Made by a program: the position numbers and the translations under genes. A DNA stretch of 64,000 nt from Portulaca oleracea (Eukaryota > Streptophyta > Magnoliopsida > Caryophyllales > Portulacaceae): the NCBI GenBank assembly GCA_029582165.1, contig CM055885.1, positions 10,228,729-10,292,728 of the forward strand. Direction: 5' to 3'. Below, piece by piece: positions 23,926 through 43,567 of the stretch; within the stretch, counting starts at the first letter, position 1; the number at the start of each line of letters is the position of its first letter. The notes beneath the pieces are model-generated. The model saw only the letters and a list, made by a program, of their open reading frames with translations, had not been told where the DNA came from and ran no database searches.

Positions 23926-24007
23926 GGGTTTATTACTCTCTAATGTTGGGCTTAAGATTTATTTACAATTTGGTACTTTATTTACTCTCTAGTGTTGCCA
24001 TCAATCA
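23926..24007 (+). repeat. Left TIR of the giant MULE
   Basis: Starts GGGTTTATTACTCTCTA and ends GTTGCCATCAATCA. It holds two copies of TTACTCTCTARTGTTG (23933-23948 and 23982-23997), 49 bp apart. The right TIR has the same two copies at the same spacing. These are candidate transposase-binding sites. Confidence 0.88.
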
Positions 24008-24079
24008 AAATCAATCAAAATGTGCTTTGACTAGAAAAACATTTACAGCAAGGTGTTATTTAGTAGAGCCCAACCTATA

Positions 24080-24166
24080 TGCGTAGGGGCATTCTGGGGA
24101 AATCACTATTTAATAAATAATAGTGCCTTGAGCATAGGGGCATTATGGGGAAAATAATATTTAATA
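24080..24166. repeat. Subterminal direct repeat in the giant MULE
   Basis: Two copies of a ~35-bp phrase (TAGGGGCATTCTGGGG … TATTTAATAAA and TAGGGGCATTATGGGG … TATTTAATAAA) lie just inside the left TIR, upstream of the transposase 5' UTR. A similar pair was not seen near the right end. Confidence 0.6.
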
Positions 24167-24823
24167 AAGTGGGACAATTTTGTAGCGGGAAAACGAAGCT
24201 TGTTGTGGAAAATTAATCAAATCTGAAGCAGTACTGTATTCGTTTGGAAGAGCGAAGAGAAGAGCCGTTGAAGTTGAGGGAGGATTGTCTGGTGGAACCC
24301 TAAATTATTCGAGAACGAAATACGTTGATTCCGAATTTCGCGGCAAAAGTGTAGAAAATTCCAATTCCAGTGGAGGAGAAATAGATTAGTGTAAGTTGTT
24401 CTTAATATCTGGAATATTTGCTGTAGGGTTTCTGGTTTTCACGAAATTTTGTTTTTTGGGATGTCATGGTTGGACTTTATAATGTTAATCTGGTAGAATG
24501 ATAATCGTGTATAATTGTATCGAAAATTGAGGAGGTGAATATGTATGTTTTATTGTGGTGTCGGTTATGGGTTACATTGTTGGAAATGAGGATTTTGATT
24601 GGTAATATAAAAAAAAGATGTTAGTGTGATGTGCGGTTTGTTTGAAGTGTATTGTTATATGGTGCAAAAAGATGTTGATTTAAACAAAATTTTTTGATTA
24701 ACATAGCATGGTCAGCAATAGTAAGTAGTAGATGAATATGTTGTATGCACGTTGTCAATGTATAATTGCTGTTTCATTTATAAATATTTTGATGTATGAA
24801 TGGTTGTCAATTTACAGTGAAAA

Positions 24824-27420
24824 ATGGGTGATGGTGAAGTACAATTTCGGGTGTTGGAAAAACGTGAAATGCCTGTATATGTTCTATATGGTGGTAAAAT
24901 GGGTAGAGTTGGATATGTTGGTGGTGAGAAGGGATGCATTTGGGTGGATGATACGATAGAGGTAGAAGATGTTGTTAAAATGGTTTCTGACTTAATAGAA
25001 CGAAACTTAAATGGGATGGACATATTTTATACTTTGAAGTATGATAGGACAATGATGATTCGGTTCTGCAAGGACGGAGACATGTTAAAAATGTTTAGAG
25101 GAAGCGATGGTGTCGGCTATTTATATGTAACATATCGTTCAGCGTTGAATGATGACGTTTCGGAGTCGCACGCTCTGGAAATCAGAGGGGACAGACATGC
25201 TGCTATATGCATGGAAAATGGGAGTGGTGCTGATATATGCATAGAAACTGAGTGTGATGTAATGGAGGCTGGAACGTCAAAGGAGGTTGAAGTAGTCAAT
25301 GCAAATGATGTGAATCGGTAAGTGTACCATCGCATAATGCATTGTGTTTGTTGAAAGTATTAAATGTTGATGTATGTGATGTTGTATTTTGTTTGAATTT
25401 GTAGGGAAAAAATTGAAAGTTGGTAAAGGAATTTGATCAATTGAATGACGTTAACCATGTTGGCTATATGGATGAGCATCCAGTGTGGGAGGAATGTTAT
25501 GATAATGATATGGATGGGATGGAAGAGGAACGGGAGAATGACGGTGGATGCTTGATGTGGCCGAAGACAGGTGGAAATTGTGAGGCATACAACACCCGAA
25601 TGTGTGCTTGGAAAAATGAGTTGACAGGGAAAGGGCAGTTGTTCCCTAGTCAAGAAGCTTTCCGGGAAAGTGTATTCAAATACTGTTTGGCATATAGGTT
25701 TGGGTATAGGTTTGAACGTAACTACCGACAGAGGATCGTTGTTTGGTGTGTTGCTGATTGTTGTCCGTTTTTTGTATGTGCTAGGGGTAGTGAAAAAAAC
25801 CCAGGCATGTATGTTAAGGAATTTAATGGTGAGCATGAGCACACCGCTGGGGATGAGTGCAACATGGGGATGTGGAAGATGAAACGATTGAGGGCATCTA
25901 TATTAGGGTCATTGATGGATGAGAAGATAAGGATGTCCCCGGATTACTCCCTGGATTCAATACTGAAGGATGTTATGCTGGAGTTTAGTATTAAAGCTAC
26001 ATACCAGCAGTGTTGGCGGGCGAGGGAGTATGTTCGGATGTTAGTTGTTGGGAACGCTGAAGACCAGTACAAGCTACTTCCATGGTTATGTGCATCCATC
26101 AGGAAAGTGAACAAAGGCTCTTATGCGTTTGTTGAGGTTGATGGGAATCTGTTCAGCCGGATGTTTGTGTCTTACTCCCCATCTATGGAGGCGTTTGTTA
26201 CTTGTTGTAGAAAAAATTTGTTCGTTGATGGAACCCATCTCAGTGGCCCATATGGTGGCACATTGCTGTCTGCAGTTGCGTTGGATGCAGACAACCATCT
26301 GTTAGACATTGCATATGTTGTTGTGGGTGGGGAGGACGATAACAACTGGGACTGGTTCCTGAGGAATCTTAGAGAGTGTATTGGGCAGACTGACACGGTT
26401 GTAATGACTGACAGGCATGGATCTTTACTGAAATATGTGCCTAAATATTTTGGGAAAGAGTTCCACTCTTATTGCCTAAGGCATTTGACCGAGAACTTTT
26501 GTCAGTTTATCTCGAAGAAAGGAGAGCGGATGACAGCCGGTAAGGAGAAGGCAAAGGAGATGCTGTCTAGAATAGCTTATGCGACCACAGATGAGGGTTA
26601 CAATTCTGGTAAGTTTCTGATGTGCACTAATAATGTGAAGATGTCAATAAAATGATTATATGTGATGGTAAATGATGGAACTTGTTGTTTTAAATTTGAA
26701 GGGATGGAGAAGTTACGTGCATATAATCCTTTATATTCAAAATGGGTTGAGGACAACGAACCGGCTCAATGGGCGCAAAGCAAATTCAAGAAGGACCGTT
26801 GGGGAAGACTGAACAACAACCCAATTGAAAGCTGGAATAATTGGATGAAAGGTCTGAGAAACATGCACATTCCATGGCTATTGTCTGGTCATTTACAGAA
26901 GGTTGGCCACAAGTATTAGAGGAGGAACGAAGAACTGAACGGGTGGAAAACAGTTGTTGGTCCTAGAATTGATGACAAGTTGAAGGACACAATTGCAAAA
27001 TCTGATTCAGTCAGCCGTGTTCAATCGTTGTCTTCTATCAGGGGTGAATATTGCATTGACATGTCCAACAGCAGGAGGGTTGTTGTCAACATAAAGTCGC
27101 GGACATGCACATGTCAGTGGTTCCAGCTAATAGGGTTGCCTTGCGTATATGCTATGGCTGTGATTCGAAGGGTTGGGCTTCCATTGTATGATTTTGTTAG
27201 TGATTATTACAAGAAGAATACACAGACAATGATGTATGTGGCAGGGATACAACCCATGGTCAGTGACGGATTTCCCTCAGTGGATGCTGCTACAGGGAAA
27301 GTGGTAGGGGGGATGACCTTGATGAAGGATTTTGCAGGGAAATACTTCCCCCACAGAATCCAAGGTAAGCCGGTCGTCCTCGAAAGAGAAGGCATGAGTC
27401 TTAGAGCCAAAATAAGATGA
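24824..27420 (+). pseudogene. MURA-type MULE transposase, three coding exons, disrupted
   Basis: Coding exons are 24824-25317, 25405-26608 and 26702-27420, with GT/AG introns. A 5' UTR intron (24391-24817) precedes the ATG. The N-terminus has a PB1-like fold region (PVYVLYGGKMGRVGYVGG). The central part has a MuDR-type zinc region (FGYRFERNYRQRIVVWC … CCPFFVC … HEH), then the MULE DDE domain with VDGTHL, TDRHG and the C-x2-H motif SYCLRHL. The C-terminal SWIM finger reads CTCQWF…GLPCVYAM, where the usual final His is Tyr. Lesions: the exon 1-2 splice does not keep frame (a stop follows 7 codons into exon 2; net one base missing near 25420), and a TAG at 26917-26919 sits within an otherwise continuous frame. 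It would cut and join element ends in the nucleus; this copy is probably not functional. Confidence 0.87.
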
Positions 27421-28180
27421 AGCATCGTTGCTCAAACTACCATCGTACTGGTCATCATAGGAACACTTGTACCGAGACAAGGGTTCACATGTATGCAGAT
27501 GTCCACGGCGGACAACAGCTTGTCGATGACGAATTTGTTAACGGAGACCAATAGTAATTTGTTCCTGCATTGTGTGTACTAGATGTTGACATTATTATGC
27601 TAACCGATGGCCTTTCAATGATGATTTTTATTGAGACAAAGGAACACAAGGAAATTTTACATTATTTTGTGTCATATGTCAAATTTTCTGTGTGTTTCAT
27701 ATTTCACGGATATCGTATAATGAAGATGTACCAAAGGTTGTTAACAAAAATTGCAGAAAAAGTTTATTAATATTTCAATAACGTTCATGGATTGTGGGCC
27801 CAACATTTGCTGAATGTGGTAACCTAGGACAAGGCCGACGTTGGCAAAAGAGGGCCCAAACTATGTACAATTTATTTTGTATTTGTGTTTGGGCCTAAGA
27901 GGGAAGAAGATGTATGTATGTAATGGCCCAACAACTCCCTTTCCCATATGACGGTTTCATTGATTGGCATTAGTGGTTACCTTTAACCTTTAAAATTAGG
28001 AACCCTACTTTAATGCTTTAAGTTATGAACAAGGAGAGTGCCATCTACCCAACAACCACATTAATTGAGGGATCTTGAATGACATGAACGACCAACTTGT
28101 CTATAAAGTTATTCAACTTGAAGCAGAAGCAGATTTCAAAACTTGGTTCACTTTCCATTATCTTAGCTTTGTCAAGTGAA

Positions 28181-28535
28181 ATGAATCATCCACGGTGCTC
28201 ATGTGGTGTTGAAGCTGTGTTAGTAGAGTCAGGTGGTCTTTACAGGCGTCGATATGCAAAATGTCCAAAAACGGTAAACCATGCATAATATTTGTTGCCA
28301 ATTTATAGGCAATGAGATGAAGTAATTACATACTAAATGCTGCTTAATTTTGATGCAGGGTGAACATGCATGCAATTATTATGCACCATATGATCCCCCT
28401 TACACTAATAGATCAATGAAGGTGATTGAAGAGCTGGACAGTCAGATGCGGGAAGTTCAAGAGACTATTCGTTATGAGCAACAGGAGAATAGGTATAACA
28501 CTGACATTGGTGTTCAACGAATGGAAGCTGCGTGA
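28181..28535 (+). CDS. GRF-type zinc-finger protein, two exons (89 aa)
   Basis: Exon 1 is 28181-28273 and exon 2 28359-28535, with intron GT…TGCAG, phase 0. The protein starts MNHPRCSCGVEAVLV and continues YRRRYAKCPK, then across the intron GEHACNYYAPYDPPY: the C-x-C-G … C … C pattern of the plant GRF zinc finger. A charged helix follows (MKVIEELDSQMREVQETIRYE), as in this family. It is short and ends without the C-terminal membrane helix seen in the broken paralog at 30323-31009, so it may be truncated. It lies inside the giant MULE. GRF fingers are thought to bind nucleic acid; its role here is unknown. Confidence 0.68.
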
Positions 28536-28665
28536 AGGATTGCTTGACTAAGAGGAAGGTGCGGTCATTTGTGTATCGTTTGTTCATTGTCGATTGTTCT
28601 GATGTGTATTTCTTAAAATCCCAGGATGTCTGGATTATGAACCATGTTTGTTTCATGTGCATGGC

Positions 28666-29219
28666 GGGTTTTTTGCATTTTGGACCCCGAACTTTAGGGG
28701 TATTTATATTCTGAACCATTGGTTTTCAACTTTAATTTTTTGGACCCTAAAATTTGTTGAATGAAGAAAAAAGAACCCTAAAGTTTGTGAGTTTAAAAAA
28801 AAGCCCCTGTCTCATTCTTTGTTTTCCTCCAATGTTTGAATTTGTCTCCCGTTTGACGTCAAACTTCAGGATTATGGTTAAAACTGATATTGAAGTTATA
28901 ATACACCTCTCTTATTCATGTTAGGGCTACTTAGACTCCTGAGTACAGGATTTAAGTAACTCCAACATGAATAAGAGAGGTTCATGATAATTTTAATATC
29001 AGTTTTGACCTTAGCTTTGAAGTTTGACGCTAATCGAGAGAGAAATTTAAATATGGAAAGAAAAAGAAAAACGGGAAACAGACTTTCTTTCAACATCACA
29101 AACTTTAGGGTCCTTTTTTTTCTTTCTACAAACTTTAGGGTCCAAAAACTTAATGTTGAAAACAAAGGGTTCAGAATGTAAATACCCCTAAAGCTCAGGG
29201 TCCAAAATGCAAAAAACCC
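28666..29219. mobile_element. Foldback MITE nested in the giant MULE (554 bp)
   Basis: Left end GGGTTTTTTGCATTTTGG and right end its reverse complement. The inverted match continues through GACCCYGARCTTTAGGGG, TTCTGAACC and inner blocks, and the centre again pairs around CTCTCTTATTCATGTT (28910-28980). Possible imperfect flanks are TGCATGGC and TTCATGGC. Long TIRs suggest a Mutator-type or foldback element. Confidence 0.7.
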
Positions 29220-30322
29220 GGTTCATGGCATTAGTGTTTCATGTTTAATTTAAGAATATGAATTTAGGGTTTGAATTTTCAGTACTTCAAGAATGTTGTA
29301 CTATATCTACTATGGTCGATCCTTTCCTTGCATGGTGGGTGCTTTCCATATTTGAGTTCATCTTCAATGTCATTCTATTTGGAAGATTCAATCGTTATCT
29401 ACCATAATATATTCTGGAATAATATACAATATAATATGTAGATATCATTTACAATATATGTCGAGATTATTTAACAGATTTTGAAGATAGTTCCCTAATT
29501 TTTTTTGTTCATCCAAACAAAACTCTCTAGACATACTATTAAGGTTAAATATATGATTTAGGTAATAAACTGATTGGAAACACAGATTATGGTTACAATT
29601 AAATTCATAATGATGCTGTCATGGTGTAGGGATATGTTGGTAGCCCATAGGGGTTATGATGCAAACATAAAGGAGTCAACATAGACACCGATGAACAGTA
29701 AACACACAAAATGTTCATGTTTATGACTGTATTGTTTTGGGTTTAGCTACAATGAAGTTCACCTTCTCCTATCCCATAGTTAGAACATAATCTTTGCATA
29801 ATGAAATGGGTTGGTTACTACTAAAGTAGAAATGCATATGTTATGCTTTATGGCTATCAAGGATGTAGGGTTGACGATGGTAAGATGAAGGAGTTAACAT
29901 GGACAACATTATTCATTAACAGATGAGAAGTGCATGGGATGCAAGTTATGTCTTCGTTAACCACTTTTATTATGTGGGTTTATGCAGTACATAGTTCAGT
30001 GAGTCGTGACTTAAGTAACACTTACAACATAAAGTATGGACAAGGATACTTGGTTAATATTAGTACTTTAGTTAAAAGATCATAATGAATGAATTAGGGT
30101 TTTATTGATGTAACAATCAATCACCTGTTTAGTTGGGTTCAAAACTCCACATTCAATGCGACTAATGTTGGGTTTAATGCAAAACCTCTTTTCCCTTGGA
30201 CGTTACTTCTTTAAATACCCAGTTACCCAACCGTTTTGTCAACCACTGAACAACAACTTGTTTTTTGCATTACAATGAGTTGAATTTCTTGTAGGAAATC
30301 CTAAAACCATAAACACAAACTC
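29220..30322. other. Unassigned AT-rich interior of the giant MULE
   Basis: I see no open gene. A weak recurring phrase (ATGCATATG…GGTTGACGATGGTAAGATGAAGGAGTTAACATGGAC near 29840-29900 and a similar GATGCAAACATAAAGGAGTCAACATAGAC near 29655) hints at an old local duplication. Confidence 0.4.
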
Positions 30323-31009
30323 ATGATGACGAGCGACAGTTCACAAAGCACATTCGGAAGGTATGGCTATTACGAAAGTTTTTTTGAGTCAGATATTGAA
30401 GATGTTGATCTATTAGATCCAGTCATCCGATGCAACCATGGTATGGGGTGCGTCCTTGAGAGTTAAAGCTGAATATGGTCACCGATATTACGTGTGTCCC
30501 ATGGAGGTTAGTAAGCGTTTTTTTAACTGTATTTATGTCACTGGGCATCTCTTGTATTTTTTATGATCAGATTAAAGCTATTTTGCATTGTCATTATGTT
30601 AGTCAACCTATCAACTTCCGCTTTGTTTAGAATGACACGGTGATTCAACAATGGGACAAAGGTGTGTTAGGGATATTATTATGAGTTCATCGGTTATGTA
30701 TTATGTCACTCAACATATGATCAACTTCTACAGGGACCTGGTAGATGTGGCTGCATGATGCCTTACTAGCCAGAATTCACTCCCAGGTCCATAGAGGTCA
30801 TTGAAGATTACAGGATGGAGATAGAAACTTTGGATGTTAGTGTCGAAAGAATGCGAATGACCGAAAACCTAAGTATGTTAACTTAGCGTGACATTCTAAA
30901 CAAAGCGGAAGGTGAACTTGGAAGACTTACAACGTTGCTCAAGTTGTTGGTGGTAGTCCTGTTTATTTTGATGTCATACATTGTCTCCGCAATTATGAAG
31001 GCGTACTAG
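30323..31009 (+). pseudogene. Second GRF-type zinc-finger gene, broken, with membrane helix
   Basis: Exon 1 is 30323-30506 (MMTSDSSQSTFGRYGYYE … IRCNHGMGCVLE, then one base out of frame, KAEYGHRYYVCPME) and exon 2 30734-31009 (GPGRCGCMMPY-stop-PEF). The order is cysteine pair, C, C, then PRSIEVIEDYRMEIETLD, parallel to NRSMKVIEELDSQMREVQ in the gene at 28181. The C-terminus is a hydrophobic helix LLKLLVVVLFILMSYIV, usual for GRF proteins. One frameshift in exon 1 and two TAG stops in exon 2 (near 30767 and 30885) disable it. Confidence 0.65.
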
Positions 31010-32194
31010 TGTAACTACATGAACCTAAACTACTGGTTGCACCTGATATTAGTTAAAAATGACATTCATGTGATTAATTCCGGGTTTGATTTTGTCATAT
31101 GGTTTTAGTTGTTTTAAGCGTCAATGTGGTAAGTGAAGTGCTTGCAACTTTGTTAATGGGCTGCAATTAGTAGTTGTAAGTTTATCTCCATGAACCTTAG
31201 TACTGTATCTCATTTCACATTTTACAGTTGGTTTTTCAACTTCAACCGTATCAATGAGTGACTCAGATAACATCAAATGAAACTTTTGTTCCCATGTTAA
31301 GTGCATTAAATAGTAAATAACTTTTCTTAACCACAAAATGATTATACAAAACATATTGCGTTATTTAATGTCAATGTAACCTTTATCATCGACTATGTGG
31401 TGCATGCTATCAATTTTAAAAGGCAAACATTTCCCTATGACGTCCCCACCACGAAACATTAATTAAATATGATTTGACATGGTTTACACTGACTGTATTT
31501 ATTTATTAAAGATGAGTTTTGCATTTATTTATATGTTAAAAATAAATATTTGTATGAAGAAATTTTGACCTCCTTTTTGTGATTGAAGTTCCCAACAGTT
31601 AACTGATGACGTCCAAAATTAATTGATGAATACATAAACCATTGATAATTAATAAATAAATTGTTAATATCTTTAATGGTGGAATAACAAGGAAACAATT
31701 ACTTTTTTCAACAGACAAAGATACTTAAACTGTCAATTAATTTGTTACATATAATATTGAAAACTTTTCATGATAGCAATATTTGTCCCCAACGTATTGG
31801 TTGAAAAAATTCTGACACTAATTTCACAATTTCCAAAGATGACAGTTAATAGGGCAAATCCTACATGAAGTACGAAAGCCTTATTTGATACAACCTAAGG
31901 AAAAAATGCAAAATGACACAAACAAAATTGCTGCATCTTTCTATTCATCATGATAGGTTCAGAGAACTTAAATTAAACCAAATATGGAAGAAAATGTTGA
32001 ACATAGTCAAAGTTTACCCACATTTCTGGACGTGACAATCAAAGTGGCTAAATGGGATTAGCATAGTACATTCATATTACATCTTCTAATTCCGGACAAA
32101 TATAACAAAATCACCCGGTCATTGTTCGCCTGCTTCCCGGGGTTATGTAAGAACATCAGTGGACATTGAAGTTTGTCACAGGATCCCTACGAGT

Positions 32195-32198
<4 letters not shown>
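31010..32198. other. Unassigned AT-rich interior of the giant MULE
   Basis: No coding sequence or repeat structure that I can support. Confidence 0.4.
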
Positions 32199-32293
<95 letters not shown>

Positions 32294-32298
32294 GTATA
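32199..32298. repeat. (TA)n microsatellite with TG interruptions
   Basis: About 100 bp of alternating TA with four G substitutions (TATG). It lies just downstream (minus sense) of the chimeric endonuclease frame. Confidence 0.95.
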
Positions 32299-32346
32299 TG
32301 TTTATGGTTATTATAGAGAAATATTGAACTTCAATTTGATTAACAG

Positions 32347-33189
32347 TTAATCCTCATTTACCTTAACAACAAAGCAAACCTCTGTGTCATCTGAAACAGT
32401 AACCGCAACATATACTTTTGCCGGATCCCAAATTATTGCCACACCACCCACAAATCCAATCGCATTCACATAATAGAAGTCAATGCTTTTAATACTACTT
32501 ATTAATTCAACTACGTTAGAACCACTAACCCTTGTTTCAGTGTGCAAGTTAGGCCTAAAAGATATACGGGCCAGACCTCTGCAATTCCATACAAAAATTG
32601 GAACTTGGGAACAATAAATCTGGCGTTTATCCTTTGGTAAATCGCCAGATGAAGGAACCATTTTGCCTCTGACATTGTACACTACACCATTAAGTTGCTC
32701 ATTGGGGATGAGGGAAATTCCAAACTCACCCATACTGCGGCCAGGTGGGAGATAGAACATGTATGTGTTGTCTATCCATCCGTTGTAGTTAACTTCCTGG
32801 TAGGAAGAATTAAGTGTCATCCTCAAATGAGGAATATATATGACCGTTGGGACCGGATCAATATCAAACGCTTCCACCATGGCTTGTTCCTCAAAAACAT
32901 GTTCTAGCCGGAAGCACCGCCGGCCAGCCTCGAAACAGGCCTCTGTTATGGACGAAGACCACTTCTCATTGAATTCAATAACAAGTGGTATTTGACCAGG
33001 CACAATTCTACCAGAAGGCAACTGACATTTGAGATTGATAAACCTTTCCCGATCTGAATCACTGAAATCAGACCAAAAGCGACATGGAAAATCCATAAAT
33101 ACTTTGAACATTAAATTGTCAAGTGGGTAAAATGTAGAAGCTACAACCCACCCAACTGAGATGTATGTATGATTTTGTGGTACATCCAT
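32347..33189 (-). CDS. Chimeric ORF: unknown N-terminus fused to a shortened LINE endonuclease
   Basis: 280 open codons. The first ~190 residues (starting MDVPQNHTYISVGWVV) match nothing I recognise; a B3-like fold is possible but weak. From about residue 197 the sequence is LINE endonuclease-like: PIFVWNCRGLARISF, ETRVSGSNVVELI, then GFVGGVAIIWDPAKVYVAV. The stretch normally between WNCRG and ETKVSG is shortened by roughly 20-30 residues, and the frame stops at ~90 residues of endonuclease, before GDFN and SDH motifs, so it cannot be a working nuclease. It lies inside the giant MULE on the strand opposite its neighbours. Either the MULE captured it or a LINE landed in a gene. Confidence 0.6.
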   Translation of the reverse strand: MDVPQNHTYISVGWVVASTFYPLDNLMFKVFMDFPCRFWSDFSDSDRERFINLKCQLPSGRIVPGQIPLVIEFNEKWSSSITEACFEAGRRCFRLEHVFEEQAMVEAFDIDPVPTVIYIPHLRMTLNSSYQEVNYNGWIDNTYMFYLPPGRSMGEFGISLIPNEQLNGVVYNVRGKMVPSSGDLPKDKRQIYCSQVPIFVWNCRGLARISFRPNLHTETRVSGSNVVELISSIKSIDFYYVNAIGFVGGVAIIWDPAKVYVAVTVSDDTEVCFVVKVNED

Positions 33190-33660
33190 AATGTATCAAG
33201 AAAGAGTGGTGGTTTTCTAATGTTTTGTGTCAACAGGTACATATTAAAAGGAGGAACCATATGGTCCAGTTGGAATGGTATGTCAGCAAAGTCAACAGCA
33301 TTGCATGACCTCCACGTGTTATTTTCCGGAAAGTCAATCTGTTTAATTTTGTATCAGGTTCATTTCGTTATGATCATAAAATATTTTCAGTTGCTAACTA
33401 TATTATGTGAAAATAAAGTGTTTAATTAACACGCATAATTTTGAGTTTATTGTAATATAAATTTAAACGTCAATCAATTTAAACTCCCTCAAAAAAACCC
33501 CAATTGATGGGACTGTCATAATGCATGTCATTTCATGCACAACATGTGCCACGCCCAACCCTATTCCTACCCTATCGTTACTTTCTTCTGGAACAGTTCC
33601 TTCAGAAGTTATCCATAATATATCATTTTCAACGGTTTATATTCTGATTTTTACTCAACC
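33190..33660. other. Spacer between divergent cargo genes
   Basis: No coding sequence supported. It separates the minus-strand chimera from the plus-strand gene at 33738 and probably holds both promoters. Confidence 0.4.
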
Positions 33661-33675
33661 CTAAACCTTCAGCGC

Positions 33676-33683
33676 TTTATAAA
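33676..33683 (+). promoter_or_regulatory. TATA box of cargo gene A
   Basis: TATAAATA lies 62 bp upstream of the ATG at 33738 and only 29 bp upstream of an in-frame ATG at 33705, which favours 33738 as the start. Confidence 0.5.
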
Positions 33684-33737
33684 TACCGAAAAACAATAGT
33701 GAGTATGAATCAGAATTGTTCCCTATCCTCTTCATCA

Positions 33738-34376
33738 ATGGCAAACCAAAATTCCAGCGCGTCTCGTACCGGTGTTCATCAAATCCAAATGAATGGTCAT
33801 GTCGAACCAATGTCACTTCTACCAATTGAGTGGCGCCTATACGTCCCTTCCCTAAACGAAGACCATACAGCGGAGGATGCCGAAAACATGGGTGATCCTT
33901 ACCACCTCTTGATAATGTTTTATGAACATGTTGTCTCACAAGCCCGCAAACACAAGTTGGTGGAAGAGGGACCAGTTCTCGATGATATTATTTTTTGTAT
34001 ACATGGAAGACATTGGGTGTACATGAGAGGTTGGTTTGAAGGGTTGAGGCTACCATTATTACGTGCTCAACTGGAATTTGAAATTGACTGGGATCCGATA
34101 AGGCCGTCGAAGCCGCTTTTAAGTGACTGGGCATCAATATGCCCCCATTTCGATTCGTCCACTTTCAACAACATAGTTGTGAGGAACAACAGAGGTTTGA
34201 TTGTTGAGATGATGTTCGTCATCAGAACACTCGGGGTGGCTCTTCGGCATAAGTTGGTCACACATGATTCCGCACATGACATGGCAACTAAAGTCGCCAA
34301 CGGTGACTTCTACCGTGCTGACATTTGGATTGACAATATTAAGCATGTCCTACAGGAGGCGGTCATGAACCATTGA
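33738..34376 (+). CDS. MULE cargo gene A: unknown family, 'WR-Y-P' type (213 aa)
   Basis: Single open exon. I chose the ATG at 33738 (MANQNSSASR) because the TATA box at 33676 places transcription start near the upstream in-frame ATG at 33705. A Ser/Asn-rich leader precedes a domain starting LPIEWRLYVPSLNE. Conserved positions shared with cargo gene B: W-R-x-Y-x-P, NM-x-D, MFY, A-x-K, D-x-x-F, L-L-x-x-Q-L-E, ICP-x-F-D, V-x-MMF-x-I, LG-x-x-LR, H-x-x-A. No known domain, signal peptide or membrane segment. It is probably alpha-helical. No stops or frameshifts, unlike the transposase. Function is unknown; location inside the MULE suggests a role for the element or captured cargo. Confidence 0.68.
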   Translation: MANQNSSASRTGVHQIQMNGHVEPMSLLPIEWRLYVPSLNEDHTAEDAENMGDPYHLLIMFYEHVVSQARKHKLVEEGPVLDDIIFCIHGRHWVYMRGWFEGLRLPLLRAQLEFEIDWDPIRPSKPLLSDWASICPHFDSSTFNNIVVRNNRGLIVEMMFVIRTLGVALRHKLVTHDSAHDMATKVANGDFYRADIWIDNIKHVLQEAVMNH

Positions 34377-35640
34377 AAGTTTTAAAAATGTTTGTCATCA
34401 TGTTTTTGTTTAGTTTAAAGCGAATGGATTTTATTACGTTATGTTATGTATGTTGAACTTCTTGATGTTTGGATTATGTGTGGATTTGGTATGTATTAAC
34501 TACTTTTGTTAATAACAACTGATTTCCCAATATATGAAGTGTTTTGTTATGTAATTTGACACCAAAAATTTGTCTTATCTGTCAATTGTTATGCACTGTA
34601 ACTAACGTTATAACCCTAATCATTAACTGCTAAACATGAACACCATCAATGGTTAACCCAGAAGAACTCCATGTTAATCAGGATATGCCTTGATAAACAA
34701 CATGATTCGTCTTGGTTAACCTTGAATGAATATGACCCACTGATAACTAAACCCTTAACATACAGTTTTCAATAGTGAATTTGTTTGGTTAGGTATTGCA
34801 ATACATTTAAATAAGATGCTAACATGTGGTACTAAACATGGACAACTTCTACTGTTAACCAAGATATACTTGATGTTAACCAAGTCATATACATTAACCG
34901 ATGTGTTATACTTGGTTAACCGTCATGAAGTATTGAGAAGTTAACCCAAACATACTTCATGTCATACTGAATGAGTGTTTAATTGTGACAATATCAGTGT
35001 CGGTTTAAGCTTCTACACATTTGTAGGCCTTCATTAACTGGAAAAAAAAAATTTTACAGGTCACACAAATAAAAAGATTATGAATGATGTTTGCTAATTT
35101 ACTGGAATAAAAATAATTATCAGTTTTCAGTAAATGCATATCATATATTTGTACAGATAAAACAAAAGTAAATTCATTAACAGGAAAATCACTGCAAAGA
35201 AAAAAAAATTATAAATAAAAAAGAATCAAAACGAATGAAAAATTTCTTGGTTAATTTGGGGGAGATATAATGTTGGATGGGTGACCTTCGAATAGTGACG
35301 ATAAACCCTAAAGAACTGAAACAAAACAAAAAAAATTAATTTATCAAAATGAAGTAATAAATTATGTGTCAGGCGGTGGGGCCCTCACAGTGACGTGATG
35401 ACTCTATTCCCAACTACGGGCAAAGATAATTTTTTCTTGTGTTTAGGGTTTTGGGTTAGTCCTAGTATCTAATTGACCAATTTCCCAAGACATTTCCGAT
35501 ATTAACTCCAAAAACCGTCGACTACTTTATGTAGGGGGGTTGTATTATGTGTAAAATTATTATTTTTTTTGGCTTTATTACTTTCTGCAAATGAAGCACT
35601 ACTTAATTGTTAAATGCAACATGTTTAATGTCACTCATTT
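34377..35640. other. Spacer with GTTAAC-rich diverged repeats
   Basis: No gene visible. 34620-35000 contains several diverged phrases around GGTTAACC and AACCAAG with ACATGAAC, similar in style to the tandem repeats at 37088-38012. Confidence 0.45.
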
Positions 35641-35662
35641 TCCAGATGGTTCTCTTGCCCTC

Positions 35663-35670
35663 TATATAAC
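35663..35670 (+). promoter_or_regulatory. TATA box of cargo gene B
   Basis: CTATATAAC lies about 125 bp upstream of the ATG at 35793, followed by a C-rich leader (CACCCCTTCCTTTCC) typical of plant 5' leaders. Confidence 0.5.
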
Positions 35671-35792
35671 GACCCTTCCACTCCAAATCCTGCCAACACA
35701 TTAACGAGTGTAACCAATTTCATTCCATACCCCAACACCCCTTCCTTTCCTTCACCTAAACACAAACCAACTCCTTGCAACCAACAAAAAAA

Positions 35793-36359
35793 ATGAACAA
35801 TCTTCCTTATGATTGGAGGATGTATGCCCCATTGCTGGACGAAAAATGGATGAAGGAAGAGGCGAAAAATATGAACGATCGCCTGTTCATGGTAGACATG
35901 TTCTACTCAGACCTCATTAATGAAGCCCAGAAATTCAACCTCATTAATGACACAATCGCCGGAGACATGACGGACGTCCTGTTCAGGAGGGAGTGGGAAG
36001 TACCATATGGGTTTTTCATGAGTGTGAAATTTCAACTTCTAAAGTGCCAACTGGAAGCCCTCCCAGATTATGAACCACCGACATCGCTATTGCCACTACC
36101 GGATGACCGGGATTTAATTTGTCCCATGTTCGACCGGTACAGATTCGAAAGCATTGCAAATGGTGTTGGAAAACCTTGGATAGTTCCGATGATGTTTCTC
36201 ATTTACTGCCTGGGCGACGGACTCCGCCTTGGGATGCTCAGTCATGCAGCTGCGGAAGAGATGACCACTTGTGTTACAGACTACAAGTTCAACACCGCCC
36301 AATGGTGGGTGCAGAACAGAAAGTGGTCACTGAAATCAGCCAACAACGTCGATCTTTAA
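35793..36359 (+). CDS. MULE cargo gene B: paralog of gene A (188 aa)
   Basis: Single open exon starting MNNLPYDWRMYAPLLDE, in A-rich start context (ACAAAAAAAATGA). It aligns with cargo gene A over nearly its whole length without large gaps: WRMY against WRLY, KNMNDR against ENMGDP, MFY in both, LLKCQLE against LLRAQLE, ICPMFD against ICPHFD, PMMFLIYCLGDGLRL against EMMFVIRTLGVALRH, HAAAEEM against HDSAHDM. Identity is perhaps a quarter to a third by eye, so the duplication is old, yet both frames remain open, which hints at selection. No recognised domain. It lacks the Ser-rich leader of gene A. Confidence 0.68.
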   Translation: MNNLPYDWRMYAPLLDEKWMKEEAKNMNDRLFMVDMFYSDLINEAQKFNLINDTIAGDMTDVLFRREWEVPYGFFMSVKFQLLKCQLEALPDYEPPTSLLPLPDDRDLICPMFDRYRFESIANGVGKPWIVPMMFLIYCLGDGLRLGMLSHAAAEEMTTCVTDYKFNTAQWWVQNRKWSLKSANNVDL

Positions 36360-37087
36360 GGGGAATCCAAGGTGTGGCGGGGTGTTTTTGTGGTTTGTAC
36401 ATGGAGGCGGCGGTAACGTTTGCTCATAGTGTTGGTGGTTAATATTTTGCTGTCAGTGTTAGTGGTTAATATTCACTTTCGCCCTTGTTTGTAGTTTGTA
36501 TGTTGCATATTTTGGGGGAACATATAACTATCAATGCTATCAACTAATCTGGTACTGTAGAAATGATGTAAGTACTTTTATGTGTGAAATGAAATGATTA
36601 GTATTATCTTGTTTTGGTACTGTTTAAATTAACATTCACATGCGTAAGTAGACTAGAAAATAATCAAAACCTCACATATCAAAATGAAATGCTTTGTCGT
36701 TCTGAAGAAAACCTCACATATCAACTGGATTATGATAAATATTGTGTTGTTTGTTTAGAAGCCATACTTAGGTATACTTTGCTGTTCACTTTTCACAATT
36801 GGAACCCTACAAATTATGAAAATAAATTACATCACAACACATGTTTCCCCTGCCCTATTAATGCCAACAATTACGTTTCCCCTTCCCTATTAATGACAAC
36901 AATTATAACTTATCTTGTTTTCGTACTCTTTAAATTAACACATGTTGTACTTAAATAAGTACGAAAGAAAATAGTAAATTATATGTTGAAAATACGGTTG
37001 GTTGAAGGAAACCCCAATGAAACCCTTATAATAATGGATGGTTTACCCATATAAGTTGCTCGGTTAACCCTGTAGTTACCAAATTAA
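36360..37087. other. Spacer downstream of cargo gene B
   Basis: Likely the 3' UTR of gene B followed by AT-rich DNA. A reading frame at 36614-36958 has no recognisable motif and I do not call it. Confidence 0.4.
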
Positions 37088-38012
37088 CTTGCTAACACAT
37101 TTCATTGTGCATACCAACATGAAAGGCGTAGTGAACCCAGACATTAATTGGTTAACATGGTCGTTTTGATGGTTAACATCTGTTTAAGTTCATGTTAAGT
37201 GCTTCAACTAAACCCAGAAACCAAAATGGGCTACATTCATTCAGCACACCATGATAAAAGGCATAGTTAACCCAGAAATAGCTTGGTTAACTTGGTTTTC
37301 TTTGTGGTTAACGTTCGTTCAAGTTCATGTCCAGTGCTCCAAGTTAACCCAGAAACCCAGATCTCATACATTGATAACCCTAAAACGTTTAATTTTGTTG
37401 GTTACACATTTGATTATGCATACCAACATGAAAGGCGTCGTTAACCTAGACATGACTTAGTTGACATTGTTTTTTTCCGGGTTAACATGCGTTGTAGTTC
37501 ATGTTCAGTGCTCAAAGTTAACCCAGGTGGCATACATTGATAACAAAAAAAACGTTAATTTACTTGCTAACACATTTCATTGTGCAAACCAACATGAAAG
37601 GCGTAGTGAACCAAGACAGTAATTGGTTAACATGGTCGTTTTGATTGTTAACAGTTGTTTAAGTCATGTTAAGTGCTTCAACTAAACCCAGAAACAAAAA
37701 AGGGCTACATTCATTCAGCACACCAAGATAAAAGGCATAGTTAACACAGAAATAGCTTGGTTAACTTGGTTTTCTTCGTGGTTAACGTTCGTTCAAGTTC
37801 ATGTTCAGTGCTCCAAGTTAACGCAGAAACCCAGATGTCGTACATTGATAACCCTAAAACGTTTAATTTTGTTGGTTACACATTTGATTATGGAAATGCG
37901 GCGTTAACCCAGACATGAGTTGGTTAACATGGTTTTTTTCCGGGTTAACGCGTTTGTTGTTCATGTTCAGTGCTCCAAGTTAAACCAGAAACCCACGTGT
38001 TATAGTTTTCGT
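37088..38012. repeat. 475-bp tandem duplication built of ~120-170-bp subrepeats
   Basis: The phrase ACTTGCTAACACATTTCATT recurs at 37087 and 37562, giving a period of 475 bp; the second copy has small deletions. Each copy contains about three subrepeats with AAAGGCGTAGTTAACCCAGA, TTGGTTAAC and CAAGTTCATGTTCAGTGCT. GTTAAC occurs many times. No coding potential. Confidence 0.75.
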
Positions 38013-38601
38013 GTTGCGGTTAATGATCCTAAATCACTACTTACATTATACCATGGTAGTTAATTACTAACGAAGCATAATTATGGAACCCAAACCATGT
38101 TAAATTATTACTGGGCCTCATTACATGGGCTAACATTCAAACCACACTCAATGGAATGACTTTGAGTTAATTGTTGTAATAATTTGTATACTAGTAAAAT
38201 CGGCCCAAAAAAATGGGCCAGTATTAATGAGCCCAACCACGCATTTCTGCATGTGTACCAGTTACATTCCCAACGCCTACTATTTATAACCCAAACATAT
38301 GATAGTTTTAGCATGCCAGCACATGTACACCCTAAACACACTTCATCGACGAACAACAATATACTTAACATTCTTGCAACGAATTTTAATCTTCTGTACT
38401 TATAAATTTGTCGTTCCATAATATACAACAAATATGACATTACACAAAGATCTTCCATACAATATCGGGTGCATACGTATTACATACATGAGCCCAATGT
38501 CTAACAGTCAACCCTCTAATATACATTACGTAAACATCCGCTTACATAATTTCATGTAATCTACATCCACCCAGGAAGTGAAATATGTATGACTCCATGT
38601 T

Positions 38602-41600
38602 TCACCCTTTTTGTTCTGGAATTGAAGTCCCGTGTGGGAAATGAAGCATCTTCCCCTTCAATATTGACAACAAGCATTTGTCGCGATACAGGTCGACATA
38701 ATCTTGACAGAATTCAACTGTCTCTCCACGAATTGTCAATAGATCTATGCACCCCATGATGAACACCCCACAGTCATGGCCACTGTACATGACATTGTAG
38801 ACACGTATATTAGTATGTTATGTACCTATAAATAGTTACCTAAACTATACACATTAACATACATACTTACTTTACTTGCTCCTTGCATGGCCCATTTATG
38901 ACTTCCCACTCGTCCACATTGTCCTTCACTCCAACGTCCTTCATACCCCGTGCCATCATTTTTTTCTGGTTGGAAACTCAACACCGGTTAAAAATGGTTT
39001 TATTAACAACAAACTCTTCAATCTACCAATAATATGATACACTACATACCGTCAACTCGTAAACTTTCATTGTCTCGTCATCCCTGTGTGGGGGTAATGA
39101 GTCAAAAAGTATGAACTTGTCATCCACAAGGTCCTCCACTAACATGAAATAATAGCACATGCGTTCATCATACATCATTTGGACAACCTGCAACCATAAC
39201 CATTTCATCAATTTACGTTTATATCTCAAGAGTTGTGCAATGATCACCGACACTCACATATCTCAGGGTGTTCAAACTCTGACTCTGCTTCTCCTTTTCC
39301 AAAGTTCTACTTATGCATGCCTCAGCACCAGTATCTACCCCCTCCTTGTTCTGTACGTCAGATAACCAACTCCTTTAATCAGTTGGAAATAACTTGGAAA
39401 ATTATCACGTTAAACATTTAAGGGAATGGGAACCACTTACAAATTTTGCTAAAATTGGGAAGATTGCCCGCCAACACATGTCAGGGTACTCGATTGCCCG
39501 ATTCAACAATAGCGTTGTGTAATGCTGAAGGACAGTGTTGGATATGTTGTACTGGCCCGGTTTCGATGTAGCTCCAAAACGGGTCACTTTCAACAGCAAT
39601 CCCCTCATCCACTCCCCCTCCATCGGCCATCCCTGACACTCAGGAATAACATTCGACCTGCATTCAACGTAAAATTCTTTACCATCATTCCAATTTCCCA
39701 CTATAACATATTGTCATTCTAAAGCACCTTACCATTCTGCACTGCCTGACTTTAACGCCTTGAACCTATCCCTCACCGTTTCTAATAGTGACTCCTCATC
39801 ATTGGAAAGGGGGGCCTTGAGGTAACTCATAACATCCTGCAAATGTATGTAACAATAATACGTCAACTTAAACACTTAAACGTTGTCAAAAGTAAAGTAA
39901 ATTTAGTGATGGCAATACCTCAACCGACATCCACTTCTGAGTTCGACCAATGACTGCTTCTTGAGGGTTATCTCGTGGAGGACACGTGGTTTTCTTGACC
40001 TCGAGTGTCAGTTCAGTGGAATTCTGACAGCTCTCAACTATGACATCGCCACTGGACAGTACATACGCTTGCCTCCTTTATTTCGCAGCGACCCAAGGAG
40101 ATTTGTTCAACGGTCCAACTTTCCTCTTCCTTGGCCATCCTTTGACATTCTTAGCAATGCATGATCCACTACTGCCATGAACTGGTTCTGTGATGTCTTC
40201 GGGGAAACTGCCACTTGCCACCAATTCTATGACAACCTCTGCATTAGGGATGTCAATGGGGCGGGGAATCCCCGAACCCGTCGGGGCCCCGCCCCGCTCT
40301 GGGGAAAAATCCCCGCCCCCATTGGGGATGGGGACAGGGACGGGGACGATTTTCCAAAATCCGCTCGGGGACTAGGCGGGGATGGGGACAAAATTTTCCC
40401 CATCCCCGTCCCCATTTTCCCCGCCGGGGTGAATTCCCCATCCCCATCCCCGAATCCCCATCCCCGAAAATGTTAAAATTACCAAATAACCTTTATTCTA
40501 ATTTAATATATATATTAATGGGAAGGACAAAGTAGTAATTTTCCAATTTATTCTCACTTGTTGATGTATTATTATTTGATTTTGATGTATTATTACTTGA
40601 GCAAGTTAAATATGTTGTATTTTGAACATGTTAAAAACCGGGTTCGATTAAAAACCGGATCCGATTAAAATTTAGCTAAATTTACGATAGTTTTAAAAAA
40701 TCCCCGTCGGATCCCCGTTGGGGATGGGGAATCCGCGGGGATGGGGATAGGGCAAGAATCATTCCCCGATGCGGGGATGGGGACAGGGATGGGGATGAGT
40801 TTTGGGAGCGGGGATGGGGACGGGGGTATACTCCCCCATCCCCGATCCGCCCCGTTGCCATCCCTACTCTATATCCACATGCTCAATGTCACGTTCAGGG
40901 GAGTCACACATTGTAACTTCTGTTTCATTCTCACTCACACTTCTCAAAATGTCATCCGCATTTGCTGAAGATTGGCATCCATGTTTCACCGATTCATCCA
41001 GCCTGGGTGTCTCATCCCTGCCAAACCTAACCCTTCTTTCCATCTCCAAACACTTTGCCTTCCAATACTCTTTCCTACCTTCAAGGAACGAGTTCCTCTC
41101 TTCAAGTTCAACAATCCGCCTCTGAAGGTTTTCAAAACGTATCTCAACGGGCTCCCCTGCCTATGTTAAGTTAAAGTAATCTCAGCACAAAATAATAGTC
41201 ATTACCAATGATTACTACTCAACATATTTTTCGCTTCTGAACTTCATGTTAATGTCCAACAAAACTAAAAGTTGAACTCTACTTGAATACCGAACAAAAA
41301 CATGTTACAAATTAATCGATTCTCACGTAGCCATTACCTCCAAATCATTAACGTATTTCTTGTAGGCTTCTGTATTTGTCATTGCATGAACTACTTCAAT
41401 GCTACTCTCATCAACAGTCACAACAAGTACTTTGCTCACCTGCATTTGGCACATACACATGTTCACTTTATTCAAATTGTCCTTAGTAATGGCTAAACTA
41501 ATTTAACAACACATCTACCTTATATTCATAAAGCCCTCTTATTACGGCATTAAATTCCCTCTTCTTAGGGATGTCAACCGTTTCCCAACTTGACAACCTG

Positions 41601-43172
41601 GGAAATCTATGCATATCATAACTCTCCATTATTCTTGTGTGCTCAAAGAACCAAACCAAACATTATAAAACAGTCAGTTCTTTTACCCATTTGAACGAAT
41701 GTACTTCCCACAACAAAATTGTAAACAAATAAATCAACTTAATACGAAAAAGCTGCAATTTACCTGTATCAGGTGACCAAACCCACTCATCTGCACCTCC
41801 ATTTGCCCTCGACTTAACTTCACATTTGCTTCATTTATTGATCCCACAAGGAAGTCCCATACAGCCTCACACCAGTTATACTGACCTAGAGTCGAAACAC
41901 TCTCAGCATACTTCACTACAGTCCAACAAGCACCCCCCGGTGATTTCGGAAACAGAACCGCACTCATTATAAACCAGCAGTACAACTGCATCCACACATC
42001 CAGTTCACCTTGCTCTTTATTGTCTTTCAATAGATGAATCATTGTACCTAAATAGTTCCTGTACAACCTTTTCCTCCCATCTTCGCCCCCGGCCCTCCCC
42101 CACCAACACCATCAACAACTCCCCTAACCATTCCCACCAATCTACTTGACTCTCCCCCACCCTCATAGTCAACTTTCATTCCTGTGCACGGCAGACCCGT
42201 TAGAAGACATACGTCATACACCGTAAAAGGAACAAACATTTTACCTAATCTAAAACCTTTAAATCTCGGTACCCATGAAGCAACCAACACTCCTGTCAGC
42301 TTCCTATTCAATTCAATCTTTCTGTACTTAAGACATGCACCGAAACATGTCCTTTCCACTACCGTACGTTGGTATTGCTCCAACTCACCATTCACCTCAC
42401 ATACTTTTTGAAGGTAACTCCGTCCCCTAACACCAAATTCTGCAGTTGATCCCACCATGTTATATACCCCACGACTGCAATCCCTTTCTCTCCTAACACT
42501 GCACCCCTCCATTTGTACATAATCAACGCCATCTAACCTAAGGTTGTCTACGTCCACCGAATTCTCCGAAACAAGAGAAGTTGAAAGGTCACTCTCAACT
42601 ACCTCCCGACCATCAAAATCATAATCACTACCACTACTAGCATCAAAATTATATACACTTGCAATGTCTGCCCTTTTTGCATACCCCTCACTTGGGGTAT
42701 ACTCTGATGAAATACTTTCACTGGTTGCAACCTGCATTTACAGTTATCACATTTAATTCACTTTGCAACAAAAACTTCCATCATTCAATTCCTTCCTATT
42801 GTCCTTCGTCATTGTTTACCCGATAATTTATTGTCGTTAACTACCTAAATTGTGGGTTAACACCAACATCTTCCGAATTTGCTTCTAAAGGATTGCACAG
42901 AAACAGTATTTGTCAACTTGCTATCATTGACGGATTCATTGAAACCCTAAACACTATAACCTAAACCATAAACACCATCTAATATAGGTTAACTACGATA
43001 TCTTCACTTTCAAAAGTTTAACATCTACAACGTCATTTTTAACATTCAAACATACCCTAAACCCAAAAAAAAAACACATCTTCACGAAACATTAAACCCT
43101 ATTCATCACGAAATCAACCTAATTAAACAATCAAAATTATGCAATACCAACCTTTCCACGTTTGGGTGCCAT
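38602..43172 (-). pseudogene. ULP1-like cysteine protease gene of the giant MULE, 11 exons, disrupted
   Basis: Exons in minus order: 43152-43172 (MAPKRGK), 41764-42731, 41519-~41655, 41338-41439, 39919-41160 (interrupted by a MITE at 40245-40866), 39733-39836, 39441-39657, 39258-39350, 39050-39187, 38871-38965, 38602-38782. Nearly all junctions have GT/AG and keep phase. The N-terminal part has a plant mobile-type region (FRLGKMFVPFTVYDVCLLTGLPC). A coiled coil follows (VEIRFENLQRRIVELEERN), then the C-terminal ULP1 fold with LFDS (Asp), CKEQV (Gln) and GHDCGVF (catalytic Cys). The expected catalytic His is in MCYYFML, where Tyr is found. Exon 2 is 968 bp, one base short of frame (near 42095). 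A TAA interrupts exon 5 (near 40080). ULP1 proteases cut SUMO or its precursors. This copy looks inactive. Confidence 0.85.
40245..40866. mobile_element. hAT-type GC-rich MITE inserted in ULP1 exon 5 (622 bp)
   Basis: Ends TAGGGATGTCAATGGGGCGG and, on the other strand, TAGGGATGGCAACGGGGCGG. Both arms are runs of CCCCATCCCCG. Flanks are CTCTGCAT (40237-40244) and CTCTATAT (40867-40874), an imperfect 8-bp duplication as expected for hAT. Removing the insert and one flank restores the surrounding exon frame (…HVDIE then VVIELV…), which confirms the boundaries. Confidence 0.82.
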
Positions 43173-43485
43173 TTTTCAGAAATTTTTCTTTTTCTATGCT
43201 ACTTTCCACGATCTACTGATGAAGACAACTACCTCAACTCGAACAGTTCGACCACCTCCAAATGTTATCCCAGTTGCAGAATCGATGTTCCCGGCAAACA
43301 CACCTTTCGTCTTTCTCAAATTCGAATGACATAAACTATTCAGTCAATACCAAACGCAGCGTTTGGACCTCATTTACAAAAAAAAATAACTAAATAATAT
43401 TACATCAGACATGTCAATCAACTACAGCAACCCTACTAACTTTTCCAAAATTTGAATCAAAATTAATTTCCTGGCGAAAGTGGGC

Positions 43486-43567
43486 TGATTGATGGCAACA
43501 CTAGAGAGTAAAAAAATATACCTTTGGTTAGCAAATCTTAAGCTCAACACTAGAGAGTAATAAACCC
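43486..43567 (-). repeat. Right TIR of the giant MULE
   Basis: The reverse complement begins GGGTTTATTACTCTCTAG and ends GTTGCCATCAATCA. Motif copies lie at 43545-43560 and 43496-43511 (49-bp spacing, as on the left). The ULP1 start codon lies 395 bp inside this end. Confidence 0.88.

Follow-up and report, generated by a model that had tools for sequence, protein, structure and literature searches.

A decayed multi-gene Mutator-like element in Portulaca oleracea, its accessory gene module and its GGTTAAC arrays

Introduction

Members of the Mutator superfamily (MULEs) are recognised by a MULE-type DDE transposase, target-site duplications (TSDs) of 8–11 bp, typically 9, and, in TIR-MULEs, long terminal inverted repeats (TIRs). 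MuDR of maize has TIRs and a 9-bp TSD. Transposon escape from silencing is known mainly from the VANDAL elements of Arabidopsis. Pack-MULEs lack a transposase and carry captured host pieces. Most described MULEs contain one to three genes: MuDR has two, oppositely transcribed, and Abermu of barley (> 8 kb) has three ORFs, the transposase plus extra ORFs that include the antisense ORFR, which its authors call not previously reported (PMC9168764). A transposase is combined with an Ulp1-domain gene in the KI-MULE/Kaonashi (KIU) elements of Arabidopsis and in ULP1 MULEs of melon, rice and grapevine (PMC2528002, PMC13317346); KI-MULEs are described as non-TIR elements with the ULP (C48) domain in reverse orientation (PMC2528002), and a review gives the Kaonashi group three coding genes. 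According to Dupeyron et al. 2019, MUDR/MDR-clade elements have a MuDR-type transposase with SWIM, a 9-bp TSD and, in most members, an antisense PMD (PMC6446971). An anti-silencing use of captured PMD has already been proposed (PMC5418596). Finally, VANDAL elements (Hiun) couple an accessory gene to a short word, YAGTATTAY or AGTTGTCC/AC, that is repeated in non-coding tandem arrays (PMC5735166, PMC10398659).

Here, we analysed 64,000 nucleotides of Portulaca oleracea (the window). Its sequence contains a degraded member of a multi-gene MULE family with non-coding GGTTAAC tandem arrays. The family form is ~ 21.8 kb long and contains nine genes: a MuDR-type transposase, three GRF-like genes, three paralogs (PAR: PA, PB and PC), a chimeric gene (CHI) and a convergent PMD-Ulp1 gene. 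It resembles MuDR and Abermu in its oppositely oriented genes and KI-MULEs in the Ulp1 (C48) gene opposite to the transposase, but has 82-bp TIRs, a PMD–C48 fusion and seven further genes. The transposase type, TSD length and antisense PMD are those of the MUDR/MDR clade, whereas the fusion to C48 sets the family apart and the GRF/PAR/CHI module and the arrays go unmentioned in the available part of PMC6446971. A convergent ULP1 gene in a MULE is thus not new. Compared with VANDAL/VANC, the family has clear TIRs, a different word, no DUF1985 match and only a putative reader protein; unlike Pack-MULEs, it has retained a transposase of its own together with a conserved module.

Results

The first-pass annotation had proposed a 19.6-kb MULE with further genes, 82-bp TIRs, a perfect 9-bp duplication, and transposase and ULP1 genes running inward from the two ends. 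All of this was borne out, the two genes by profile matches. The large element (23926–43567) is a defective copy with the following features (coordinates, strand, description):

23917..23925, no strand, left TSD ATAAATAAA
23926..24007, +, left TIR, 82 bp, with 14-bp repeats at 23935-23948 and 23984-23997
24824..27555, +, MuDR-type transposase gene (DBD_Tnp_Mut, MULE, SWIM) from profile matches; last exon boundary uncertain
28181..28616, +, GRF1-like gene of two exons, with a hydrophobic tail at the C-terminus (E 0.69 for Pfam GRF, which is short of the cut-off)
28665..29220, no strand, nested MITE-like palindromic insertion, missing in all five other copies spanning this stretch
30323..31009, +, GRF2-like gene of two exons, with a hydrophobic tail at the C-terminus (E 0.023 for Pfam GRF, which is short of the cut-off)
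31496..31500, no strand, deletion junction, ~ 3.8 kb lost relative to copy c18b (alignment to other copies)
32347..33189, −, chimeric gene CHI, 280 aa here and 293 aa in the family consensus
33705..34376, +, paralog PA, intact ORF
35793..36359, +, paralog PB, intact ORF (dN/dS 0.33 between copies)
37060..37980, no strand, tandem array 2, units about 135–166 bp, holding the majority of the GGTTAAC words in the element
38602..43172, −, PMD-Ulp1 (C48) gene, for which the family model has 11 exons
40245..40866, no strand, nested hAT-like insertion within the ULP1 gene, missing in all five other copies aligned here (copy c2a does not cover it)
43486..43567, −, right TIR, 82 bp, with 14-bp repeats at 43496-43509 and 43545-43558
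43568..43576, no strand, right TSD ATAAATAAA

The TIRs are 82 nt each, 83% complementary and separated by 19,478 nt, and ATAAATAAA stands on both sides as a perfect 9-bp duplication. Each TIR contains ACTCTCTARTGTTG twice at a spacing of 49 bp, giving four matches in the window against 0.05 expected. With its DDE transposase, 9-bp TSDs and 82-bp TIRs, the family has the structural features that define MULEs.

The 1.13-Gb host genome contains many relatives of this element. Ends were paired among 40 listed of 428 left and 40 listed of 337 right first-look candidates. Among ten elements with both ends (the window copy and nine others), seven TSDs were perfect 9-bp duplications, one matched at 8/9 and one at 7/9 positions, and the long copy c1 had none; leaving out the window copy, 6/9 were perfect, 2/9 near and 1/9 absent. 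The first-pass annotation had let its reading depend on other loci with the same TIRs around the same genes, and four of six other copies examined had both ends and the cargo genes. These four lie on C1, C3 and C16 and at another place on C18; each of three has its own TSD, perfect or near. The fifth has the cargo, with its right end not seen in the stretch examined, and the sixth has an internal deletion. The transposase was found in the window copy and in five others. Because one set of genes and one DNA word recur across copies, they look more like a kit that serves the element itself than like cargo picked up by accident.

The possibility that an assembly error or unrelated nested insertions had joined two ends gains a little from the two nested insertions and the internal deletion of the window copy. 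Since the same ends flank the same genes in the four independent copies, we rejected an assembly chimera, whose probability we regard as close to nil.

The transposase of the window copy matched MULE (E 1.6e-14) and DBD_Tnp_Mut (1.1e-10), and the family consensus matched the Pfam profiles MULE (3.3e-15) and Transposase_mut (1.4e-07). A zinc knuckle was located by eye near 27420-27465. The spliced family consensus of the ULP1 gene matched PMD (8e-11) and Peptidase_C48 (3e-6), and the His, Asp and Cys (DCG) positions are retained, as judged by eye. A Pfam search at E up to 10 gave only PMD and C48 and no VANC-type DUF1985 match, and DUF1985/VANC homology of this protein was therefore rejected. 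In the window copy, the transposase gene has stops and an indel, both GRF-like genes are broken, and the ULP1 gene, interrupted by the hAT-like insertion, also has a frameshift and a stop, and the position of its catalytic His is altered. The lost ~ 3.8 kb held GRF3, PC and tandem array 1.

The cargo had been described as two GRF zinc-finger genes, a pair of paralogs and an endonuclease chimera, all of which were found in the window copy as two GRF-like genes, two paralogs and a chimeric ORF. The family, however, has three GRF-like genes and a trio of paralogs, PC having been lost from the window copy by deletion. The GRF assignments are weak: two of the GRF-like family proteins scored 15.2 and 10.5 bits against a Pfam GRF cut-off of 25.9, and the third had no Pfam match. 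CHI consists of a conserved N-terminal part and a WNCRG...ETR...GG segment, which we take to resemble the first third of a LINE endonuclease; by these motifs, CHI would presumably hold just the first part of that domain. The C-terminal part had no endonuclease profile match in Pfam or PDB, and an endonuclease function was rejected on this ground. To obtain a plant LINE endonuclease for comparison, all DNA analysed was scanned, along with six more long-copy stretches used for this purpose alone; the scan returned CHI itself and nothing else. Homologs of CHI elsewhere have the same fusion (32–45% identity over 58–96%), and some of them come from saguaro (Carnegiea). Protein searches with PAR returned no relative, either from one sequence (32 candidates) or from the three-paralog alignment (7653 candidates); the database appears to contain some plant proteins, in uncertain number, so this result does not show a restricted family. 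PA and PC differ by a dN of 0.34 and a dS of 0.92. Structure models were too poor for use (mean pLDDT 41 for PB and 37 for CHI).

Between copies, dN/dS was 0.33 (0.22–0.53) for PB, 0.47 (0.30–0.76) for PC, 0.47 (0.29–0.77) for CHI, 0.55 (0.43–0.74) for ULP and 0.67 (0.47–0.93) for the transposase; the intervals of GRF1, GRF2, GRF3 and PA span 1. PB, PC, CHI and ULP1 are under purifying selection. PAR and CHI were both present at 30 of 49 PAR/CHI places, with CHI opposite to PAR in all 30, and their pairing persists down to ~ 50% protein identity. A related transposase lay upstream on the same strand at 23 of these 30 places and none matched nearby at seven. Conversely, the module was absent downstream of 12 of 41 related transposases, and it occurred at none of the 12 distant transposases included (42–54% identity). 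These counts rest on 96 of 119 PAR, 34 of 54 CHI and 53 of 109 transposase matches; the omitted PAR and CHI matches are further pieces of places already counted, and those omitted for the transposase comprise additional pieces plus 22 distant places with 24–46% identity.

Whether the cargo occurs in all copies had been left as a check, and short relatives were found to be without it. The non-autonomous relatives c8s and c1s have the same ends and near-identical ORFs. The c8s ORF matches an RNA-binding domain of the host, APO (E 2.4e-40), which shows that host DNA is captured in this family; two other ORFs searched had no match. A compact relative (c12s) has matches only to the transposase, the array and ULP1. 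These observations favour passive capture as in Pack-MULEs, in which the cargo would be hitchhikers without function for the element. On the other hand, the point estimates for PB, PC and CHI fall below that of the transposase, and together with the PAR/CHI co-occurrence this selection argues for a stable accessory set. We rejected passive capture as the main account and consider it very improbable; the accessory genes very probably form a kept, co-inherited module.

GGTTAAC ranked first among all 7-mers in five of six elements examined and in neither flank. It occurs 25–50 times per long element and 54–63 times in non-autonomous ones, against about 1.5–4 expected, and was enriched in all ten examined elements sharing the ends. 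In c18b, the transposase, GRF, PAR and CHI spans contain none; the arrays occupy intergenic parts of the interior, and fewer words are grouped on the 5′ side of ULP1. Of the 30 words in the window copy, one falls within an exon of the transposase (25450-25456). The words occur on both strands (21:17 in c18b, 32:31 in c8s), and their core is palindromic, with GGTTAACC present 29 times in c8s. The non-autonomous relatives, which have no transposase match, have ~ 200 bp of ends in common with the long elements and a different repeat unit in which GGTTAAC is again dominant; because their repeat units are similar, the three count as one independent set. Genome-wide, GGTTAACCN{8,20}GGTTAAC gave 1352 forward matches against 29 for a control. 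Of about 100 places listed, many have another context (GGTTAACCGC...GCGGTTAACC) and do not derive from the element arrays. The word is thus not exclusive to these elements but is also present in other repeats. Its arrays in both element types are a new observation and resemble the VANC-target repeats of Arabidopsis VANDAL.

Discussion

The explanation that we favour, at a probability of about 0.6, is that of a decayed multi-gene MULE copy with a kept module and a proposed counter-silencing via the arrays. The transposase is predicted, on good grounds, to act on the repeated 14-bp sites of the TIRs and to make the 9-bp duplications. Equally well supported, it would mobilise in trans both defective copies, such as that in the window, and non-autonomous relatives sharing only the ends. 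By analogy with VANC at VANDAL repeats, an element-encoded protein, most likely PMD-Ulp1, might read the GGTTAAC arrays and locally lift silencing, possibly by cutting SUMO from silencing factors; we put this step at somewhat below even odds. Every GGTTAAC-bearing element, autonomous or not, would then be released. GRF, PAR and CHI would be expected to have putative roles within the same counter-silencing or mobilisation kit. The fullest version is a counter-silencing kit addressed by sequence, which would comprise eight accessory genes, among them the SUMO-protease-like PMD-Ulp1 as likely reader or effector. Its address, GGTTAAC, would also be borne in bulk, in another repeat unit, by non-autonomous relatives whose interiors are unrelated, through convergence or descent that kept only the word. 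We offer this version as doubtful.

Trihelix GT-1 binds a GGTTAA-type site. The arrays might accordingly be enhancers for a host transcription factor that drives the element genes, with no element reader and no anti-silencing, and the abundance of the word outside these arrays and its palindromic core would suit such a role. Yet the c18b arrays lie mainly between genes, and the densest arrays (54–63 words) are found in non-autonomous elements, which need no expression of a transposase; we regard enhancers as unlikely. The arrays of these same elements would also be explained if they were internal sites for the transposase or an accessory protein that help distant ends to pair, an architectural role with which mixed strands and enrichment in all ten elements would also agree. 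The TIRs, however, bear a different repeated 14-bp word, and no MULE is known to us to require arrays in its interior, which makes assistance in pairing rather improbable.

If counter-silencing through the arrays is correct, it would represent a second VANC-like system, in TIR-bearing elements, whose address is preserved even by the parasites of the parasite. A MULE with nine genes, some of which form a co-inherited module, indicates that plant cut-and-paste elements are able to keep a real accessory genome, and GGTTAAC arrays common to autonomous and non-autonomous elements may provide a testable handle on transposon escape from plant silencing.

Copies of the element

The Mutator-like element (MULE) that the first-pass annotation had placed at 23926–43567 has inverted ends of 82 bp (83% complementary) and is flanked by a perfect 9-bp duplication. 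Each terminal inverted repeat holds a 14-bp word twice, the copies lying 49 bp apart. We searched the genome (1.13 Gb, 63 contigs; a plant genome, judging by the genes in the window) with a 201-bp left-end query and with a right-end query, for which 40 scored matches each were listed from 428 and 337 candidates, respectively. A right partner in the correct orientation lay within 80 kb of 31 of the 40 listed left ends. The paired-end spans were 19.6–26.5 kb (12 pairs), 6.2–14.7 kb (11) or 30–70 kb (8); the long ones are possibly spurious.

Six other long copies were fetched (c3, c16, c1, c18b, c2a and c2b). In c3, c16, c1 and c18b the same genes lie within both ends, mostly at 91–96% identity to the window copy. 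The gene set is also present in c2a, with no right end seen in the stretch examined, and c2b carries an internal deletion. Target-site duplications were compared in ten elements with both ends (the window copy, five long copies and four short relatives): the duplication was perfect in seven, 8/9 in one and 7/9 in one, and none was found for c1.

Gene content and decay of the window copy

The order of features in c18b (21,844 bp) is as follows.

Transposase (+)
GRF1, GRF2 and GRF3, GRF-like genes (each +)
PC, paralog family PAR (+)
Array 1, non-coding tandem array
CHI, chimeric gene (−)
PA and PB, paralog family PAR (each +)
Array 2, non-coding tandem array
PMD-Ulp1 gene, ULP1 (−)

In Pfam, the transposase consensus matched DBD_Tnp_Mut, MULE and SWIM, and the ULP1 consensus matched PMD (residues 143–365) and Peptidase_C48 (743–864); the nearest solved sequences to the ULP1 protein were yeast Ulp1 and SENP1, both weak (E 0.23–0.58). 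GRF1 and GRF2 matched the Pfam GRF zinc finger below the cut-off only, and GRF3 did not match it. PA and PB had no Pfam match, and PC had a weak, below-cut-off match to DUF1539 (E 0.12). Identities among the paralogs were 116/204 (PA–PC) and 78/185 (PC–PB), with dN 0.34 and dS 0.92 between PA and PC. Nine CHI homologs, four of them named saguaro proteins, showed 32–45% identity across 58–96% of CHI length. WNCRG occurs in all nine and the GG part in eight, P0004 stopping short of it. We take the WNCRG...GG segment to resemble the initial third of LINE endonucleases from plants; the first-pass annotation had called CHI an endonuclease chimera, and no endonuclease profile (Pfam, PDB profiles) matched the segment.

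Compared with c18b, the window copy lacks ≈ 3.8 kb; the missing stretch starts ahead of GRF3 and ends shortly beyond array 1, and the deletion junction shows a few bases of homology. Of the genes left in this copy, the transposase, GRF1, GRF2 and ULP1 are broken; PA, PB and CHI have open frames, CHI with an in-frame gap. The ULP1 gene of c1 has no stops or gaps, its insert being excluded from the alignment. The window copy also bears two insertions, both absent in other copies spanning the point.

28665–29220, MITE-like palindromic insertion with GGGTTTTTTGCATTTTGG ends, nested
40245–40866, hAT-like insertion inside the ULP1 gene, imperfect 8-bp duplication

GC skew (window 23001–43000) is +0.46 at the left of the element and −0.44 at the right, a sign change that mirrors the convergent gene layout. 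Elsewhere in the window, positions 1–15700 hold a tandem satellite array of at least eight units of ≈ 1.15–1.25 kb (92–99% identity across the compared 300 bp), each with an (AT)n run; the array is broken between ≈ 6.6 and 12 kb. Right of the element, at 50132–50185 and 57973–58045, are two short tandem repeats built from similar 20-bp units (CACGGCCCGTGTTGGCTCAA and CACGGACCGTGGTGGCTCAA).

Selection and the PAR–CHI module

Pairwise mean dN/dS between copies (bootstrap intervals in parentheses) was 0.67 (0.47–0.93) for the transposase, 0.64 (0.37–1.27), 0.64 (0.30–1.28) and 0.63 (0.36–1.21) for GRF1, GRF2 and GRF3, 0.64 (0.38–1.20), 0.33 (0.22–0.53) and 0.47 (0.30–0.76) for PA, PB and PC, 0.47 (0.29–0.77) for CHI and 0.55 (0.43–0.74) for ULP1; these values are rough because pairs have a common history and most copies bear lesions. 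PB, PC, CHI and ULP1 have lower point estimates than the transposase; the intervals overlap.

The genome-wide survey of the module (PAR plus CHI) covered PAR, CHI and transposase, and 96 of 119, 34 of 54 and 53 of 109 match rows, respectively, were used in the counts. Of 49 places, 30 held both genes, 17 PAR only and two CHI only. CHI was opposite to PAR at all 30, at CHI identities of 52–100%; the most divergent of these places have one PAR and one CHI without the full set. A related transposase on the same strand lay no more than 50 kb upstream at 23/30 places with both genes, 6/17 with PAR only and 0/2 with CHI only. Conversely, the module was downstream of 29 of 41 transposases with at least 58% identity and of none of the 12 counted at 42–54%. 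We infer that the module is old and a property of one MULE clade.

Short relatives and the GGTTAAC arrays

The short relative c12s (11.5 kb) has only transposase, a large array and ULP1. The others, c13s, c8s and c1s (12.9–14.7 kb), have perfect target-site duplications, have only ≈ 200 bp per end in common with the long form and gave no tblastn match to any of the nine family proteins (E 1e-3). One of three c8s ORFs queried matched the host APO RNA-binding domain; by eye, a near-identical ORF is present in c1s. These three look like non-autonomous elements mobilised in trans; they form one set because their repeat units are similar.

The window contains 32 GGTTAAC words (whole-window shuffle mean 9.1), 30 of them within the element and one of these in a transposase exon. 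Long elements have 25–50 (c2b, 8), c12s has 35, c13s 54, and c8s and c1s 63 each; 0.8–4.2 are expected per element, versus 8–63 observed. Outside elements there were two in 49 kb of flanks of other copies and two in the 44 kb of the rest of the window. Among 7-mers GGTTAAC ranks first in c18b, c12s, c13s, c8s and c1s and second, after ATATATA, in the window element; it is missing from the left flank and does not stand out in the right one. In c18b no copy of the word falls within the transposase, GRF, PAR or CHI spans; the ULP1 span contains three, all beyond position 21,000, the site of the first ULP1 intron.

Tandem units are ≈ 135–166 bp in the long form (window) and ≈ 195–208 bp in the non-autonomous elements, where the word recurs every ≈ 21–22 bp. 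A blastn search of the long-form arrays against c13s, c8s and c1s gave no match (E < 1e-3), and comparison of whole interiors gave fragments only (E 0.017 or worse); the common feature is therefore the word itself. A genome-wide search for paired words returned 1352 matches versus 29 for the control. Many of those listed lie in another context, which counts against exclusivity of the word. Part of the listed matches carry a second repeat class, GGTTAACCGC...GCGGTTAACC, which is absent from the arrays studied.

Relation to known systems

ULP1, PMD and extra ORFs have each been described in MULEs before. A MULE from barley, > 8 kb long and carrying three ORFs, was termed previously unreported (PMC9168764), and none of ≈ 21.8 kb is mentioned in the available portion of a review on giant transposons (PMC6431247). 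Among the titles and abstract openings listed from the open-licence PMC literature (Repbase being outside its scope), we found no MULE with ULP1, PMD and GRF cargo of this kind.

Arabidopsis VANC proteins are described as binding short words in non-coding tandem repeats of the VANDAL elements to which they belong, causing loss of methylation at those repeats (PMC5735166, PMC10398659). Some VANC genes bear a Ulp1 domain, according to a 2026 review (PMC13317346), and anti-silencing has been proposed as the purpose of PMD capture (PMC5418596). By analogy, a PMD-Ulp1 gene together with arrays that keep GGTTAAC on two repeat backgrounds would fit a VANC-like system.
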